From assembly GCF_030694085.1 (NCBI RefSeq), contig NZ_JAUXZE010000056.1, positions 1-64,000 of the forward strand: a stretch of DNA of 64,000 nt, in the 5' to 3' direction. Numbering within the stretch: position 1 is the first letter of the stretch; the number at the start of each line of letters is the position of its first letter. Positions 1 through 14,148 of this stretch are shown here, piece by piece. The DNA is from Tabrizicola sp. (GTDB lineage: Bacteria > Pseudomonadota > Alphaproteobacteria > Rhodobacterales > Rhodobacteraceae). A program made the position numbers and the translations under genes. Below the pieces are notes generated by a model. That model saw nothing but the letters and a program-made list of their open reading frames with translations, did no database searches and was not told the origin of the DNA.

Positions 1-64
1 TGACGTTGCCCCCTCGGCCTAATCCAGTTTGAGGTAGACTCTGGCCCAACCGAGAGGACCAGAG

Positions 65-331
65 ATGAAGCGTAGCAGGTTCACCGAAGATCAGATCATC
101 GGCATTCTGAAGGAGCATGAGGCTGGGGTTTCGGTCGCCGATCTGTGCCGCAAGCACGGCGTCAGCGATGCGACCGTCTACAAGTGGAAGGCCAAGTATG
201 GCGGGATGGATGTCAGTGAGGCGAAGCGGCTGAAGGGGCTCGAGGACGAGAACGCCCGTCTGAAGCGGTTGCTGGCCGATGCGATGCTCGACAACGCCGC
301 GCTGAAGGATCTTCTGGGAAAAAAGTGGTGA
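65..331 (+). CDS. IS3-family transposase OrfA (HTH)
   Basis: [47 protein letters not shown] is typical of IS3 OrfA. Confidence 0.95.
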
Positions 332-1254
332 CGCCCGCCGCGAAGCGGCAAGCGGTCGCGCATCTGGTGGCGGGCCACGGGATGAGCGAGCGGCGGGCGT
401 GCCGGGTGATCGGCTGTTGCCGGATGACCATGCGCTATGAGGCGATCCGGCAAGAGGACCCTGTGCTGCGCGAGCGGCTGAAGGAGCTGGCGCGTGTCCG
501 TCGCCGGTTCGGCTACCGGCGGCTGCATGTCTTCCTGCGCCGCGAGGGGCTTGAGGTGAATCACAAGCGCCTGTTCCGGATCTATCGCGAGGAGCGGCTG
601 CACGTGCGCCGTCGCGATGGACGCAAGCGGGCCATCGGCACGCGGGCCCCGATGGCGCTGCCGCTGATGCCGAACCAGCGCTGGTCATTGGACTTCGTGT
701 CTGACCAGTTGACCGATGGCCGCCGCTTCCGGATCATGACCGTGGTCGACGACTGCACGCGGGAATGCCTCGCCCTCATCGCCGACACGTCCCTGTCCGG
801 CGCACGGGTGGCGCGGGAACTGGCGGCCCTGTTCGAGGTCCGCGGCAAGCCAATGACGGTGGTCAGCGACAACGGGACCGAGTTCACCTCGAACGCTATC
901 CTGACCTTTGCCGATGATCGCAAGATCGACTGGCACTACATCGCGCCCGGCAAGCCGACCCAGAACGCCTTCATCGAGAGCTTCAACGGTCGCCTGCGCG
1001 ACGAGCTTCTGAACGAAACGCTGTTTGCGTCCCTGAACCACGCCCGCGCCACGCTCGCGGCCTGGCGCACAGACTACAACACCGAACGCCCGCACTCCCG
1101 CCTCGGCTGGCAGACACCCGCCGCCTTCGCCCAGACCTTCGCCCTGCAACGGGGCCTGACGCTGCGCAACCCGCAAAGCTCCGCGCCAGCCCCCGTTGCC
1201 CAAACCGCCCAAGCAGGCAAAACTCAAATCCAGAGTCTCGCTCACGCTGGATAA
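325..1254 (+). CDS. IS3-family transposase OrfB (rve integrase core, DDE), probably made by -1 frameshift from OrfA
   Basis: Integrase-core motifs [52 protein letters not shown] slippery site at 319-325 in the OrfA frame. Confidence 0.95.
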
Positions 1255-1272
1255 AAGTTGGGGGCAACGTCA

Positions 1273-1957
1273 AGCGCACAAGGAGGAAATCGATTCAGCC
1301 AAGTTGGCGATTGCGTTCGAGAGCGAGCACCCTTCCCGTTTTGAGAAGTTCACGGATGGGATCTATCTCAGCGATACAGAAGGACGCCCCACCTACAGCG
1401 TCACCTTCAAGTTCAACGCAAGGGCACATGTCTCGTCCCCGTTCACCGAACGCGCCGCGACGCAGGCTTCTCGCAGATATCTACTTGTGAGCGGACACGG
1501 GGAACTCCGTTCGGTCTGCCGTCTCTACGCGCAAATGGCGGAGAACGAAAACGAGCCCCTTAAGGCCTTCCTGTTTGGCTGGTCTGCAGTTGAGATCCTT
1601 GTGTCAAAAGTGTTTGTCGCATTCGAAAATGAGTTCATGTCACCCCTGCTTGACGGAGCACAGGCCCGACTTCGCCAGAGGTTTCTGAGCCGTGTTCAGG
1701 AGGTAATGAAGGATAAGTATCGTCTTGTCGAGAAATTCACCTGCGTGACCGTCGCGCTGTTTCCCCACTCAGCTGATACGGATGTCGATAGCTATCTCGA
1801 ACAGTTTAAGAGACTTAAGGGGCTGCGGGACAAGTTATTGCACGGTCAAGACGTCCCTGAAGATACCCTGCCAGTCCATGAGCTTGCTGGCCTCCTGCGC
1901 CGCTATGTTCTGGCCTTTCTCGAGAGGACGGCACGATCGTCCGAAGCCTCAGACTAA
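1273..1957 (+). pseudogene. 3' remnant of a HEPN-like (Apea-like) protein gene, 5' part displaced by the IS
   Basis: The listed ORF 1196..1957 starts inside the IS. Host-derived part contains KAFLFGWSAVEILVSKVF and RDKLLH (R-x4-H) near the C-terminus. Confidence 0.6.
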
Positions 1958-2255
1958 CCCCAGCCATGTCGACCAGTTTATGTGGGTGATAGAGGTAGCG
2001 TCTGGATGGGTGGTGCGGCCTGCGCTGGCTGTTGATGTTAACGGGAAGGGCCTGGACGAGATGCAGGCATCGCCAGAGCTCAGCGTTGAATTCGAAACAT
2101 GGGGTAAGACGCCTAGTGGTGCCGGGTAGCTTCCAGGATGAAGCAGTGGGCAGTGCCATCCGTTCCGCCCGTTGGGGCATCCCGTGGGGCACTGTCGACG
2201 ATGCCTCCAGAATTCGGATCCAGGGAAGGTTTATGCCACGAACGAAGAGAGAGTT

Positions 2256-2330
2256 TGGCTGGGGCGCTAGGATTCGAACCTAGGTATGTCGGTACCAAAA
2301 ACCGATGCCTTACCACTTGGCGACGCCCCA
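2256..2330 (-). tRNA. tRNA-Gln (anticodon TTG)
   Basis: Reverse complement TGGGGCGTCGCCAAGTGGTAAGGCATCGGTTTTTGGTACCGACATACCTAGGTTCGAATCCTAGCGCCCCAGCCA folds as a cloverleaf; anticodon loop TTTTGGT; CCA encoded. Confidence 0.96.
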
Positions 2331-4927: not shown

Positions 4928-6700
4928 CTACGACGAGACCTGTTCCCGCAGGATCGCGGCGGTCATCGAGACCATGAGGTAAATTCCCAGCATGATCAAC
5001 AACGTCACCATCGTGTTTTCGAAGGCGCGGGGGAAGGCAGGCTCATCCGGGGGGATCGGACTGACGGAAAGCGAAAGGTAGCGCACCTGCCGGTTGGCCT
5101 CGACGCGGGCGGTCTCCATCGATTGCAGCGCCTGGGCCAGCAGCATCTGGCGGGTCTGCAGATCGGCTTGGGCGACAAGCAGCTGACCCTGGATCTCGGC
5201 CAGGCTGGTCGAGCCAGCCGAAGTATCGGTCATCCGGGCGCGCAGGTCGGCGACCTCGCTTTCCAGCGTTGCGATGCGCCGTTTTATGGGGTCCATCCGT
5301 GCCTGGTTCGGCTCGGCGTTGGATTCCATCTGTGCCAAGGCCAGTCGTTCCTGGGTAAGCTGGTTCTCAAGCCCGGAAATCTGTCCGACGATCAGCCCGA
5401 CCTCGGTTTCCGAGGACAGGATCTTGAACTTTTCCTGCAGCTCGATGAGCTTCTTCTGCGAGTTGGTCAGCGCGGCCTGCGCGGCCTCGTAGCCCGCCTG
5501 GGCATCGGTCATCTGGTCGGCGCGCAGCCGCTGGGTCAGATGGTCGACCTGTTCTTCGGCATAGGCGATCAGCTGTCTCGACCAGGCCGATGCAACCTGT
5601 GGGTCGGCGGCGATCACATCCATGCGGATCACGCCTTCCGTCGTATCGAACGAGATCTTCAGGAACTTCTTGTAGACCTTGTAGGCCGCTTCCAGGCCGG
5701 CATCGGGGGCCATCCGCTGCAACTGGTCGATCTGCGCGTCCTGGAAGTGGCTCCGAAAGCCCAGGTCTTCGTCCAGCCGCCCCATCGCCTCACGCGACTG
5801 CAGATAGCCCTGCACGGCAATCGAATCCTGCGATGTTGCGAAAGCAGTGCCGGAAAAGAGCCCGCCCATCGACCCGCCGCCACCGCTGGGGCCGGCCTGC
5901 TGGATCACGAACTCCGAGCGCACCGAATACATCGGTGTCGCCATCATGTAGAAATACCAGCCTGCCAGAATCGTGGGCAGAAGGACGAAGGCAAAAAGCC
6001 GCGCTCCCAGAAGGGCGAGGCGGCGACGGCGGCGGCGCGCGATGTCCTGCTGCATGCGCAGGATTTCGGCGGCCTGGTTCACTTCGGCGCGCTGCTCGGT
6101 CGAGGGCAGTGCTATGGGCTTGGCCTTCTTTGGCAGTTGCACAACGTCGCCGGGCAGGCGGGCGATCTCGCGCCCTGGCTCGCGCCCTGGCTCACGTCCC
6201 GGCTCGCGGGGTTCGGCCTGTGGGAAACCCGGCTGCGGCTGCGGATGCACGCCCGGCGTCACTACGTCGGGGGATGGGGTGACCACGCGCAGGATCGACG
6301 CGCGCGAAAAGGGATCGACCCCGGCTTCGCGCAGCAGGCGGACGGCATCAGCCTCTGACGTCGGGGAAAGGTGGCTGCGCTGCGCCACAAGCATGGCCCG
6401 GCGCAACTGTCGTTCGGTCAGGCCTTCGGTCAGGATCGCGGCATTGACGCGGGTGATCTCTTCGGGCGTGACAGCGCGGGCGACGGGTTCGGCCGAAGCG
6501 ACGCCGGCGGGAGGCGCAGGCTCTGGTTCAGGGGTCTGGGTGCGGCTGGCGGCCTGATCCTCGGGCCGGCGGAAGTCCATGTTGCCAAAGCCGTCATCCT
6601 GGTTGTCGAACAGCTGGCCGCTGCTTCCTGCGTCCGGCGGGACGGCGGAACGGTCCACCGGGCGGGTGTTGTAGCGCGGAACCTTAGGCGTCGTAGTCAT
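4928..6700 (-). CDS. Capsule polysaccharide export inner-membrane protein (KpsE/CtrB-like) with long disordered N-terminus
   Basis: Wzz/KpsE-like TM and periplasmic segment (ATPMYSVRSEFVIQ, coiled coil, C-terminal TM). Start MTTTPKVPR chosen at 6700 inside the longer ORF; overlaps the end of kpsT. Confidence 0.85.
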   Translation of the reverse strand: MTTTPKVPRYNTRPVDRSAVPPDAGSSGQLFDNQDDGFGNMDFRRPEDQAASRTQTPEPEPAPPAGVASAEPVARAVTPEEITRVNAAILTEGLTERQLRRAMLVAQRSHLSPTSEADAVRLLREAGVDPFSRASILRVVTPSPDVVTPGVHPQPQPGFPQAEPREPGREPGREPGREIARLPGDVVQLPKKAKPIALPSTEQRAEVNQAAEILRMQQDIARRRRRRLALLGARLFAFVLLPTILAGWYFYMMATPMYSVRSEFVIQQAGPSGGGGSMGGLFSGTAFATSQDSIAVQGYLQSREAMGRLDEDLGFRSHFQDAQIDQLQRMAPDAGLEAAYKVYKKFLKISFDTTEGVIRMDVIAADPQVASAWSRQLIAYAEEQVDHLTQRLRADQMTDAQAGYEAAQAALTNSQKKLIELQEKFKILSSETEVGLIVGQISGLENQLTQERLALAQMESNAEPNQARMDPIKRRIATLESEVADLRARMTDTSAGSTSLAEIQGQLLVAQADLQTRQMLLAQALQSMETARVEANRQVRYLSLSVSPIPPDEPAFPRAFENTMVTLLIMLGIYLMVSMTAAILREQVSS

Positions 6701-7340
6701 AAAGGCGTTTCGCTTCTTCCAGGGTCTCGAACTGATAGAGCTTGCCATTCCGCAACACGGCGGCCGTGCGGCAAAATTTCTCAAGCGTCTTCGGTGAGTG
6801 CGAGACGATGACGACGGTCGAGCGTTTCAGCCGCTCTTGCAGGATGTTGCCAGCCTTGCGGTTGAACTCGACATCAGCGGTAGCGGGCATGCCTTCGTCG
6901 ATCAGGTAGATGTCAAATTCGATCGAAAGAAGCAGCGCAAAGGAGAACCGCCCGCGCATGCCCGAGGAATAGGTAGCGAGCGGCATTTCGAAATATTCGC
7001 CAAGTCCGCAGACCCAGCGGCAGAAGCTTTCGACATAGTCGGGGTCCAGGCCGTAGAGCCGGGCAATGTAGCGGCAGTTTTCCTTGGCCGAATGCTTGTT
7101 GTTGACGCCCCCCATGAACCCAAGGGGAAAGGACACGCGCGAGGTCTTGCGGATCGTGCCTTCGTCGGGCTTCTCCAGGCCTGCCATCATGTTGATGATC
7201 GTGGTCTTGCCGGTGCCGTTTCCGGCGAGGATGCCCAGCGAATTGCCCAACTCGACGCGAAACGAGGCGCGGTCAAGGATCACCTTGCGCTGCGTTCCCG
7301 TCCAGAAAGATTTCGATACGTCCCGGAACTCGATCATCAT
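6684..7340 (-). CDS. kpsT: Capsular polysaccharide ABC transporter ATP-binding protein
   Basis: GILAGNGTGKTTIINMMAGLEKPDEGTI, TYSSGMRGRFSFALLLSIEFDIYLIDEG. Confidence 0.92.
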   Translation of the reverse strand: MMIEFRDVSKSFWTGTQRKVILDRASFRVELGNSLGILAGNGTGKTTIINMMAGLEKPDEGTIRKTSRVSFPLGFMGGVNNKHSAKENCRYIARLYGLDPDYVESFCRWVCGLGEYFEMPLATYSSGMRGRFSFALLLSIEFDIYLIDEGMPATADVEFNRKAGNILQERLKRSTVVIVSHSPKTLEKFCRTAAVLRNGKLYQFETLEEAKRLYDYDA

Positions 7341-9408: not shown

Positions 9409-9987
9409 ATGCAGTTGAGCGTGGAGATCCGCGCCTGTCGCCTCTGTGCCGCGCGCTTTGTGGCCACGGCGACGGCGCACGCGCCGCGGCCGGTGGTCTG
9501 GTTCCGGCCCGGGGCGCGGATAATGGTGGCAGGGCAGGCTCCCGGTCTGCGGGTGCATGACAGCGGGCGGCCCTTCACCGACCGCTCCGGTGACCGCTTG
9601 CGCGACTGGATGGGGCTGAGCGAGGCCGAGTTCTACGACCTCGACCGTGTGGCCGTGGTGCCAATGGCGTTCTGCTTTCCCGGCTATGACGCGACCGGCA
9701 GCGACCTGCCCCCGCCGCCCATCTGCGCGGCAATGTGGAGAGGGCGGGTGCTGGACGCTTTGGGTGACATGCCGCTGACCCTTCTGGTCGGCGGTGCCGC
9801 GATCCGCTGGCACACGGGCCTGCGCGACGTCACCAAAGCCGTGGCCGATTGGCGCGCCTTTGCCGCGCGGGGCGTCTTTCCCTTGCCGCATCCGTCGTGG
9901 CGGAATACGGGGTGGCTGAAACGCCATCCCTGGTTCGAGGCCGAGCTTCTTCCGGCCTTGCGCGCCCGGGTCCGGGAGGTTCTTTGA
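9409..9987 (+). CDS. Uracil-DNA glycosylase family protein
   Basis: CRLCAARFV, IMVAGQAPGLRVHDSGRPFTDRSGDRLRDWMG, PLPHPSWRN: UDG family 4/5-like layout. Confidence 0.85.
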   Translation: MQLSVEIRACRLCAARFVATATAHAPRPVVWFRPGARIMVAGQAPGLRVHDSGRPFTDRSGDRLRDWMGLSEAEFYDLDRVAVVPMAFCFPGYDATGSDLPPPPICAAMWRGRVLDALGDMPLTLLVGGAAIRWHTGLRDVTKAVADWRAFAARGVFPLPHPSWRNTGWLKRHPWFEAELLPALRARVREVL

Positions 9988-10772
9988 TGTCAGAGCTAGT
10001 GACCCTGCTTGACGCGGCCCATGCCGCCGTTTCGGCCGACCCCGAGAACGAGGTCCTGCGCCTGCGTTTCTTCGAGCGGCTGGCCGACGGCGAAATGGTG
10101 CTGCTTCTGGAACGCGAGGCGGAGGGCCAAAGCCTGGAGCCGAAGGTGTTCGCGCTGGAGGACGGGCCTGTGGTCCTGGTCTTCGACCGCGAGGAACGGC
10201 TGGCCAGCTTTACTGGCGGGATCGCGCCCTATGCCGCGCTGCCGGGGCGGGTGATTGCGGGGCTTCTGAAGGGGCAGGGGATCGGGATGGGCGTGAACCT
10301 GGGCGTGGCACCCTCGTCCATGCTGCTGCCGCCCGAGGCGATGGACTGGCTGGCCGAGACGCTGGAGGAGGCGCCCGAGGAGGTCGAGGCGCGGCCCGAG
10401 GCGTTTGTCGCGCCGACCGTCCCCGAAGCGGTGATCGCGGCGCTGGACGGCAAGCTTGCCCGGGCCGGAGGGCTGGCGGCGGCGGCGGTGCTGGCGGGTG
10501 TGGTCTATGCGGGTGGGCGGCGCGGCCACCTCCTTGCGGTGCTGGATGCGGTGGACGGGGCGCAAGCGGCCCTGGCCCGCGCGATGAACGAGGCGCTGGT
10601 CTTTTCTGGCGTCGAGGCGGGCGAGCTGGACGTGGTCTTTCTGGCAAGTGGCGATCCGGCGGCAGCGGCGCTGGCCAAGGTCGGCTTGCGGTTCGACCTT
10701 CCAGCCCCAGAAAGGCCAGCGGCCGCCGCAGCCCCCGGCATGGACCCGTCGCGGCCGCCGAAGCTTCGGTGA
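9987..10772 (+). CDS. SseB family protein
   Basis: SseB-like N-terminal half (VFALEDGPVVLVFDREERLASF); start overlaps the upstream stop (TGATG). Confidence 0.75.
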   Translation: MSELVTLLDAAHAAVSADPENEVLRLRFFERLADGEMVLLLEREAEGQSLEPKVFALEDGPVVLVFDREERLASFTGGIAPYAALPGRVIAGLLKGQGIGMGVNLGVAPSSMLLPPEAMDWLAETLEEAPEEVEARPEAFVAPTVPEAVIAALDGKLARAGGLAAAAVLAGVVYAGGRRGHLLAVLDAVDGAQAALARAMNEALVFSGVEAGELDVVFLASGDPAAAALAKVGLRFDLPAPERPAAAAAPGMDPSRPPKLR

Positions 10773-10809
10773 CGCCTCCGGCGGGGATATTTTGGCAAAG
10801 ATGAAAGGC
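10771..10809 (+). repeat. Dispersed 3'-end repeat, copy A (GCCTCCGGCGGGGATATTTTGGCAAAGATGAAAGG)
   Basis: Matches copies at 52932-52966, 52996-53030 and 53471-53502 on the opposite strand. Confidence 0.8.
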
Positions 10810-10963
10810 TTAAGTTGGGGTATCTTGATACCGTTGTTGTAAGTGTTTGTTTTTTATGTGATAAATATTGATCCACGCGCTTGACGCAGCGCGGACCTTC
10901 GGCGATAAGCCCGCATCCGAGTTTCCGGGGGCGCCTCAGGCCCCCTTCTTCTTTGGGAAAACC

Positions 10964-11428
10964 ATGAAAACCTTCACCGCTACTCCGGCGGACATCGAGA
11001 AGAAGTGGATCCTGATCGACGCCGAGGGCGTCGTTCTGGGCCGCCTTGCCACGATCGTCGCCAATATCCTGCGCGGCAAGAACAAGCCGACCTTCACCCC
11101 CCACATGGACATGGGTGACAACGTCATCATCATCAACGCCGACAAGGTGCAGATGACTGGCAACAAGCGCAACGACAAGATCTACTACTGGCACACCGGC
11201 CACCCCGGCGGCATCAAGCAGCGCACCGCGCGGCAGGTGCTGGAAGGCAAGCACCCCGAGCGCGTGGTGGAAAAGGCCGTCGAGCGCATGATCACCCGCA
11301 ACCGTCTGGGCCGTCAGCAGATGACGAACCTGCGCGTCTACGCCGGGGCCGAGCATCCGCATGAAGCACAGCAGCCCACCGTTCTGGACGTGAAAGTCCT
11401 GAACCCGAAGAACACCCGGAGCGCGTGA
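10964..11428 (+). CDS. rplM: 50S ribosomal protein L13
   Basis: [30 protein letters not shown]...[11 protein letters not shown]. Confidence 0.98.
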
Positions 11429-11430
11429 TC

Positions 11431-11913
11431 ATGGCCGATATCAAATCTCTTGATGACCTGAAGTCGGCTGTCGGTTCCGCCCCCGCTGCGGTGGAAGCCG
11501 CGCCGCGTGTGGCCGTCCGTGACAAGCTGGGCCGCTCGTATGCGACCGGCAAGCGCAAGGACGCGGTCGCCCGTGTCTGGGTCAAGCCCGGTTCCGGCAA
11601 GGTTGTGGTCAATGGCAAGGAAATGGCGGTCTACTTCGCCCGTCCCGTGCTGCAGATGATCCTGAAGCAGCCGTTCACCGTGGCCAACGTGGAAGGCCAG
11701 TTCGATGTCTACGCGACCGTCGCCGGCGGGGGCCTCTCGGGCCAGGCTGGCGCTGTGAAGCACGGCATCTCGAAGGCGCTGCAGCTGTACGAGCCCACGC
11801 TGCGCGGTGCCCTGAAGGCCGCCGGCTTCCTGACCCGCGACAGCCGCGTCGTCGAACGGAAGAAGTACGGCAAGCCGAAGGCCCGCCGCTCGTTCCAGTT
11901 CTCGAAGCGCTAA
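11431..11913 (+). CDS. rpsI: 30S ribosomal protein S9
   Basis: [20 protein letters not shown]...[25 protein letters not shown]. Confidence 0.98.
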
Positions 11914-12338: not shown

Positions 12339-13763
12339 ATGAGTCGCCAGAGGATTATTGTGACTGATACAAATTGGGCGCCCGACCTGACTCAATTCCC
12401 CGGGCCGAAGTATCTCGCCTTGTCGCGCGCCCTGCGGGATGCGATCCGTGCGGGGGATCTGCCGGCCAACTCCCAGCTGCCGACTGTGCGTGATCTGGCC
12501 TGGCGCCTGCATCTGACACCCGGAACCGTGGCCCGTGCCTACCAGCTTGCGACGCAAGAGGGGCTTCTGGCGGCCACCGTCGGACGCGGGACCTTTGTGG
12601 CGGCGCAATCGCCGCGCCTTGGCCCGACCCAGGCATTGTATACGGAGCGGGTGACCGGCGGCACGACCGGGCTGGTTGACCTCCGCCCGCCGCAGGTGCC
12701 GGAAGTCGGCCAGGCCGAGGCCTTCCGCGCCGCCCTTCTGGAGATGGCAGGGACGACGGGGCAGGGCTGGCTCGATTATACCAGCCAGATGGGCGAGGCC
12801 AGCTTGCGGGCCGAGATCGTGACCTGGATGGGCGACCGCATCCTTGGTCCCATCGGACCCGAGGATGTGGCGCTGACCCACGGCGGGCAGAACGCGATTT
12901 CCCTGATCTTCGATTGCTGCCTGCGTGGCGAACGCCCCGTGGTCCTGATCGAGGAACTTGCCTATCCCGGCTTTCGCTATGCCGCCCGCGCCGCGCGGGC
13001 CGAGGTTGTACCTGTCGAGATCGACGAACACGGCATCGTCCCCGGCGCGCTGGAGGCGGCCTGTCGCCGTCACGGCGCGCAGGTCCTGTGCCTGACGACC
13101 GAGGCGCAGAACCCCTCGACCGGCCGGATGCCGGTCAAGCGGCGTCAGGAGATCGCCGAGATCGCCCGCCGCTATGACCTGCAGATTCTCGAAGACGACT
13201 GCTATTCTGTCGCCGAAAGCGACATCCCGTCCTTGCGTGCGCTGGCGCCAGAGCGGGTCTGGCTGGTCGGATCGGTCTCGAAGACGATCTCGGCGGCGCT
13301 GCGGTTCGGCTATGTGATCTGCCCGGCGGGTATGGGCGAGGCGGGGCGGCTGACTGCGCAGCACGGATTCTTCGCGCTGTCGCGCCCGGTGGCCGACCTG
13401 ATGCTGCACCTTTTCCGTTCCGGCGAAGCGCAGCGGATCAAGGTGGAGGTGCAGGCCGAATTCGCGACCCGGTTGCAGACCCTGGTCAACCGGCTGGGCG
13501 CCTATGATCTTGGCTGGCAGCCTGGTGTGCCCTTCGTCTGGCTGCGTCTGCCAATCGGCTGGCGGGCTTCGGCCTTCGTGCGTGCCGCCGAGGCCCGCGG
13601 GGTTCTGGTCCGGTCGGCCGACGAATATGCCCTGGTCCACGGCCGTGCGCCGAATGCGATCCGCCTGGCGATTGCTGGCAACCTGCCGCGCGATGCGTTC
13701 GAGGCCGCCGTGCAGACCCTTTCCGACCTTCTTGGCCGGCCGCCTTCGGACCTGTCCGTATAG
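12339..13763 (+). CDS. MocR-type regulator (GntR HTH plus PLP-dependent aminotransferase domain)
   Basis: LPTVRDLAWRLHLTPGTVARAYQLATQEGLLAATVGRGTFV; TTEAQNPSTGRMPVKRRQEIAEIARRYDLQILEDDCY; VGSVSKTISAALRFGYV. Alternative start GTG 12360. Confidence 0.93.
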   Translation: MSRQRIIVTDTNWAPDLTQFPGPKYLALSRALRDAIRAGDLPANSQLPTVRDLAWRLHLTPGTVARAYQLATQEGLLAATVGRGTFVAAQSPRLGPTQALYTERVTGGTTGLVDLRPPQVPEVGQAEAFRAALLEMAGTTGQGWLDYTSQMGEASLRAEIVTWMGDRILGPIGPEDVALTHGGQNAISLIFDCCLRGERPVVLIEELAYPGFRYAARAARAEVVPVEIDEHGIVPGALEAACRRHGAQVLCLTTEAQNPSTGRMPVKRRQEIAEIARRYDLQILEDDCYSVAESDIPSLRALAPERVWLVGSVSKTISAALRFGYVICPAGMGEAGRLTAQHGFFALSRPVADLMLHLFRSGEAQRIKVEVQAEFATRLQTLVNRLGAYDLGWQPGVPFVWLRLPIGWRASAFVRAAEARGVLVRSADEYALVHGRAPNAIRLAIAGNLPRDAFEAAVQTLSDLLGRPPSDLSV

Positions 13764-13887
13764 GAAAAACCCGACCTGTTGCATTTGGGACTCGCTCACA
13801 GGGAATGGCCAATCCGTGAGTTGACCGAAGGGCAAGCTCTGCCTCACAGTCCGGGCACGAGCAGAACAAAAAAAGAGAGCCCGAAAA

Positions 13888-14148
13888 ATGGGACTTCAAC
13901 ATGCATTCCACGCGCCGCACGGCGGCGCGGATTTTCTGGGTTGGCGCAAGACCCGTCAGGGTGCCACCGAGATCGTCTACGATGACGGCGTCGCCCGCCG
14001 CATGATCTGGCGCGTGGCCACCGACGACCCGTCCGAAGCCCGCATCGCCGAAGCGTTGCGCGTCGCCGTGGGCTCGATCCGCGTCGTCCCCACGCTTTAT
14101 GACGAGCTGAAGAAACGGGCGATCGCCATCGAGCGCGTCGCGGGTTGA
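13888..14148 (+). CDS. Hypothetical small protein (86 aa)
   Basis: Clean ORF between the MocR gene and the ABC permease; no recognised domain. Confidence 0.6.
   Translation: MGLQHAFHAPHGGADFLGWRKTRQGATEIVYDDGVARRMIWRVATDDPSEARIAEALRVAVGSIRVVPTLYDELKKRAIAIERVAG

Follow-up and report, generated by a model that had tools for sequence, protein, structure and literature searches.

An IS3-interrupted gene for a putative HEPN-like RxxxxH protein at the tRNA-Gln end of a probable integrative island in Tabrizicola sp.

The window, as the whole 64,000-nucleotide stretch of Tabrizicola sp. DNA analysed here is called, begins with a complete IS3-family insertion sequence (positions 1–1272, plus strand), which is followed by the tail of an interrupted protein-coding gene (1274–1957, plus strand) and by an intact tRNA-Gln with the anticodon ttg (2256–2330, minus strand). 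The insertion sequence has the organization of other IS3 elements and shows no unusual feature: its ends, TGACGTTGCCCCC, form a perfect 13-bp terminal inverted repeat of the TG...CA type, its length is about 1.27 kb, and its transposase is encoded by two overlapping frames, OrfA (65–331, plus strand, 88 aa, HTH_Tnp_1) and OrfB (325–1254, plus strand, 309 aa, rve integrase core), which are matched by NF033516 and PF01527/PF00665. Over the whole of its length it shares 90% identity with an IS3 element carried by a Paracoccus marcusii plasmid. Base 1 of the window is also base 1 of contig C48, which is thus broken off at the left end of the IS, and no second copy of that end turned up when the genome was searched for it.

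The initial annotation had described the sequence directly after the IS right end as the C-terminal ~228 residues of a host gene truncated by the element, and this description holds. A frame of 227 codons without an internal stop abuts the IS and runs to the stop codon at 1957, with RDKLLH in its ending region. A 363-aa homologue encoded in a Hyphomicrobium MAG (L010:8575–9666) matches the DNA from base 1273 onwards, which is the first base past the IS, with 72.6% identity over 658 columns; the two proteins are 70% identical, with a dN of 0.19 and a dS of 1.55. The start of the match right at the IS edge indicates that about 140 N-terminal residues are missing and, together with the protein identity and the dN and dS values, that the frame is a genuine gene tail and not a chance one. 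The IS3-family element has thus severed the N-terminal part of the gene, and the lost portion, likewise anticipated in the annotation, has no match elsewhere in the assembly when the Hyphomicrobium and Sinorhizobium homologues are used as queries. As the IS took away the N-terminal part, the copy in this strain is probably inactive, and the frame of the remaining domain, still open after the interruption, fits a recent event.

The protein belongs to a rare, unnamed and mobile family. Its five members found, which are 25–77% identical to one another, come from this genome, a Sinorhizobium megaplasmid, an Arthrobacter plasmid, and the Hyphomicrobium and Trichlorobacter MAGs; the two MAG members were recovered with a profile, after a first scan of genome contigs with the single protein had given none. 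No other genome with the gene was present among 397 genomes of the same taxonomic family, 385 of the class and 399 of the phylum (overlapping sets), the phage and viral contig searches revealed no relatives of the protein, and a PDB sequence search with it returned nothing relevant. The Sinorhizobium homologue adjoins a NucC-type nuclease, the Hyphomicrobium homologue is divergent from an LmuB/PtuA-like (Lamassu/PtuA-like) ATPase gene, the Arthrobacter homologue has a type III restriction enzyme as its neighbour and an annotated integrase nearby, and that of Trichlorobacter is close to an integron integrase (TIGR02249 above cut-off, 4e-89; contig L011 1–3503). No conserved partner gene is common to these loci, and the simplest model is therefore an effector that acts alone, its N-terminal part serving as the sensor.

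At two of these loci, further details were observed. On plasmid pA of Sinorhizobium chiapasense, the NucC-type nuclease (L004 8683–9321, minus strand, PADLOC E 9e-88) is also next to an IS21-like pair (9471–11725, from ORFs), and an obvious CBASS cyclase is absent from the 16 kb read. The Trichlorobacter homologue is possibly carried as a gene cassette, and inspection by eye revealed no clear attC.

The C-terminal domain of the protein is likely to be of the HEPN type. Its R-x4-H motif, R-D-K-L-L-H (codons 185–190; 1826–1843, plus strand), occurs among the homologues in the variants RDKLLH, RDGLLH, RNKIAH and RDALFH, with a D or N following the arginine, and both the arginine and the histidine are invariant in all five. 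The alignment of the C-terminal domain contains 12 invariant columns, and the only polar residues among them, with an invariant tyrosine column counted as aromatic, are an E, a D, and the R and H of the motif. The invariant E is followed by x4-K in three of the five members, compared to the typical Ex3[KR]. The domain (1517–1936, plus strand) is predicted to be helical with the helix order of HEPN domains (pLDDT 74 and pTM 0.66, the fold models being built from only three sequences), and the model would place R104 within the helix 86–108, H109 just past the end of that helix, and the last helix at residues 120–139. In the HEPN layout described by Anantharaman et al. 2013 (PMC3710099), the arginine closes a long helix, and the histidine comes at the start of the loop that leads to the last helix; the placement of the two residues in the model agrees with this layout, which supports a HEPN-like domain.

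The profile matches to known HEPN domains are weak. The sole PADLOC match of the fragment, which is not at a curated level, is to CARF_HEPN (E 0.026), the Arthrobacter homologue has a weak match to HEPN_RiboL-PSP (E 0.055), and Pfam and NCBIfam scans of the fragment gave no match. In a comparison with a profile of 22 RiboL-PSP-HEPN domains, the family scored above all 150 of 150 column shuffles and well below held-out true members, at a low absolute score. Foldseek with the domain model (pLDDT 74) returned no HEPN chain among the matches shown, and with the low-confidence full-length model (pLDDT 48) the matches were meaningless and included no HEPN. Of the earlier designation of the protein as HEPN/Apea-like, the HEPN-like part is upheld by the invariance of the R-x4-H and of the E and D residues, by the correct order of the helices and by the weak profile matches, although neither a Pfam or NCBIfam match nor a fold match accompanies them. 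The Apea-like part is abandoned, with no Pfam match and a profile comparison score that was reached by 87 of the 150 shuffles.

Identity with HEPN_Apea (PF18739) was rejected on that score, which is no better than that of column shuffles, the Apea profile built here consisting of three members only. The ApeA HEPN proteins do share the R-x4-H motif and an N-terminal extension with the present family, but the ApeA-NTD1 extension is about 300 aa long and mostly made of beta strands (PMC3710099), whereas the extension here measures about 200 aa. To the HEPN superfamily at large (RiboL-PSP-HEPN, PF18735; CARF-HEPN effectors; integron-cassette HEPN, PMC3710099) the family is alike in its C-terminal helical domain, in the position of the R-x4-H where the penultimate helix ends, with a D or N after the R, in a conserved upstream acidic residue, and in its mobile and defence-linked contexts, one homologue being close to an integron integrase. 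It differs in falling below every curated cut-off, with a profile similarity slightly above that of shuffles, in the E-x4-K form of the acidic motif in three of five members, and in that no structural match was found.

The gene tail sits, as was first stated, on the 3′ side of the tRNA-Gln, which is the target of an integration. The att core, TTGGCTGGGGCGCTAGGATTCGAA (2255–2278, plus strand), is the 3′ end of the tRNA, and an arm-type repeat pair, TGGGGCA-N5-TGGGGCA, is located at 2173–2191 (plus strand). In the 300-bp interval that separates the gene tail from the tRNA, the initial annotation had seen no convincing gene. The segment 1962–2126 (plus strand) may be the decayed tail of a 522-aa gene of a related island in genome G793, a weak assignment at 37% identity over 57 aa with one stop and an E of 0.0013 genome-wide. 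The interval, which also holds the repeat pair, is not quite empty, and from its sequence it may be composed of the faint tail of that gene and an attachment arm.

The att region has only one other match in the same genome, at C57:2957–3001 on a separate contig, and there the 24-bp core is repeated exactly at C57:2978–3001 on the reverse strand. This copy is a tRNA 3′ end alone, with no tRNA called at the position by ARAGORN. A tyrosine integrase (C57:420–1637, PF00589 and DUF6538) is encoded on the same side of the att copy as a number of small island genes, the island portion of the contig extending over approximately 1–2977, and a histidine kinase and further sequence are found on the other side. 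In the related genome G800, the C57 sequence past the att repeat is co-linear and continues right next to the tRNA-Gln and to the window's flavoprotein gene, which represents an empty site, and G791 likewise has an empty site that is near-co-linear with the same sequence. In two other relatives the same tRNA-Gln is occupied by islands with a core at both ends, of about 3.4 kb in G795 and about 6.5 kb in G793, the second core of the latter having two mismatches; the integrases of G793 and C57 are 95% identical, and stretches of the C57 end survive in G795 at 93% identity. The TGGGGCA pair, with its 12-bp step, is located inside the att at both ends here and recurs with the same spacing next to the tRNA in G795 and G793, an arrangement that integrase arm sites would be expected to show.

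The beginning of the window thus very probably constitutes the end of an integrative island that lies next to its target, the 3′ end of the tRNA-Gln. The initial annotation had raised a possible island boundary here, which is now borne out by the 24-bp att repeat, the integrase on C57 and the empty sites in G800 and G791, the comparison of the tRNA-Gln locus in relatives that it had called for having produced empty sites in two of them and a repeated core in two others. A core-genome gene at this tRNA, the opposite expectation, was not encountered, as the gene is present only in this genome among the genomes searched. From the gene order in relatives, we infer that the window end and the C57 end belong to one island, although no contig spans the two. 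The arrangement resembles other tRNA-targeted tyrosine-recombinase elements in the insertion at a tRNA 3′ end, the direct repeat that keeps the tRNA whole, the nearby integrase close to one end, the paired arm sites, the exchangeable cargo and the empty sites in relatives. It differs from elements of this kind in that the pieces read showed no genes for phage structural proteins or conjugation, and in that the island is incomplete here. Integration at tRNA-Gln has been reported for Rhodobacteraceae prophages (PMC8224337).

The reading that we favour on balance, with reasonable though not strong confidence, is that a tRNA-Gln integrative element carries an RNase of the abortive-infection type which an IS has inactivated; that the protein is a defence RNase at all appears, judging by sequence, only slightly better than an even proposition. 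An island would have entered the tRNA-Gln 3′ end via its tyrosine recombinase, with the far end, carrying the integrase and the second att, now on C57. Its cargo would include a gene for a protein of about 360 aa, with a putative N-terminal alpha/beta domain, as suggested by a low-confidence model, and the C-terminal helical RxxxxH domain. The N-terminal part may sense a phage or stress signal, upon which the HEPN-type, metal-independent RxxxxH domain would cut host RNA and stop growth, leading to abortive infection. In this strain, the IS3-family element has removed the presumed sensor half together with the start of the gene.

It is unlikely, though well short of negligible, that the helical domain is instead not a HEPN and its R-x4-H coincidental, the protein having perhaps a structural, another enzymatic or a binding role, or being neutral island cargo. 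The failure to match any Pfam or NCBIfam family or, among the matches shown, any PDB HEPN chain, and the low absolute HEPN profile score all agree with such a view, but no polar residue other than R, H, E and D is invariant across the five members, at 25–77% identity, and such a view has to contend with the HEPN-like helix and motif layout, with CARF_HEPN and HEPN_RiboL-PSP among the weak matches, and with the defence-like neighbourhoods. A rather improbable alternative concerns the state of the gene, which could still be working through low-level expression from a TTG at 1196, in the open frame that crosses the IS right end, or from an internal ATG at 1535 that could yield the bare helical domain, the product being an unregulated or altered protein. 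Between 1160, inside the IS, and the stop codon at 1957 the frame is uninterrupted, and the domain and motif are complete with no frameshift accumulated; an intact frame is, however, equally expected shortly after the interruption, an unregulated RNase would be toxic, and by eye there is no evident ribosome-binding site at 1535.

For the fate of the missing part, a deletion of neighbouring island DNA by the IS is a real possibility that falls somewhat below even: position 1 of C57 may adjoin the IS left end, with the N-terminal part gone from the genome. Its absence from the assembly even though homologues are known, and the fact that both contigs stop inside the island, point in this direction, but at a completeness of 95.7% an unassembled gap accounts for the absence equally well. 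It is very improbable that the two contig ends derive from two different islands or from a mixed assembly, with the att likeness reflecting use of the same tRNA. While no contig spans the ends and contamination is estimated at 2.3%, in the relatives the histidine kinase of C57 is situated right next to this tRNA-Gln and flavoprotein gene, and no locus in the genome other than these two matches the att region.

In the G795 island (L045, G795:C4), the tRNA-adjoining gene (13145–13990, minus strand) encodes a 281-aa protein with an R-x4-H motif, RNNLVH, and a sub-threshold OST-HTH/LOTUS match (E 0.0009), and from its sequence this protein is possibly a second RNase cargo in the same tRNA-proximal slot.

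A broader and rather doubtful idea is that an undescribed and very rare single-gene phage-defence RNase family, combining an N-terminal alpha/beta sensor with a C-terminal RxxxxH domain, moves among tRNA islands, plasmids and integrons, and that the tRNA-proximal slot of this island family swaps unrelated RxxxxH RNases, the exchange being suggested by the RNNLVH protein with its OST-HTH-like domain in the G795 island. If the favoured reading is right, the mobile defence repertoire would gain an RNase-type effector family not yet listed and overlooked by PADLOC, Pfam and NCBIfam, the tRNA-Gln site of the genus would be a small and easily surveyed hotspot for such cargo, and the window would hold a gene of defence type that an IS appears to have silenced. 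The arrangement itself is of a familiar kind; it is the protein family that is rare and unnamed.

Further loci of relatives deserve mention. In G785 (L049/L023, G785:C3), the TGGGGCA-N5-TGGGGCA pair is present in exact form next to the tRNA-Gln, at 276 bp from its core, and neither a second core nor an island was found within the 14 kb read; the pair is possibly the scar of a lost island. The G793 island (L048, G793:C35) encodes the 522-aa protein at L048 11231–12799, which has polymerase-like stretches by eye (VDFKGLH, HDSF) and no match in Pfam, NCBIfam or PADLOC. In the same island, the tail of the histidine kinase is copied between the arm sites and the tRNA (5775–7184 and 13465–13692), which makes the duplicated stretch much longer than the tRNA end.
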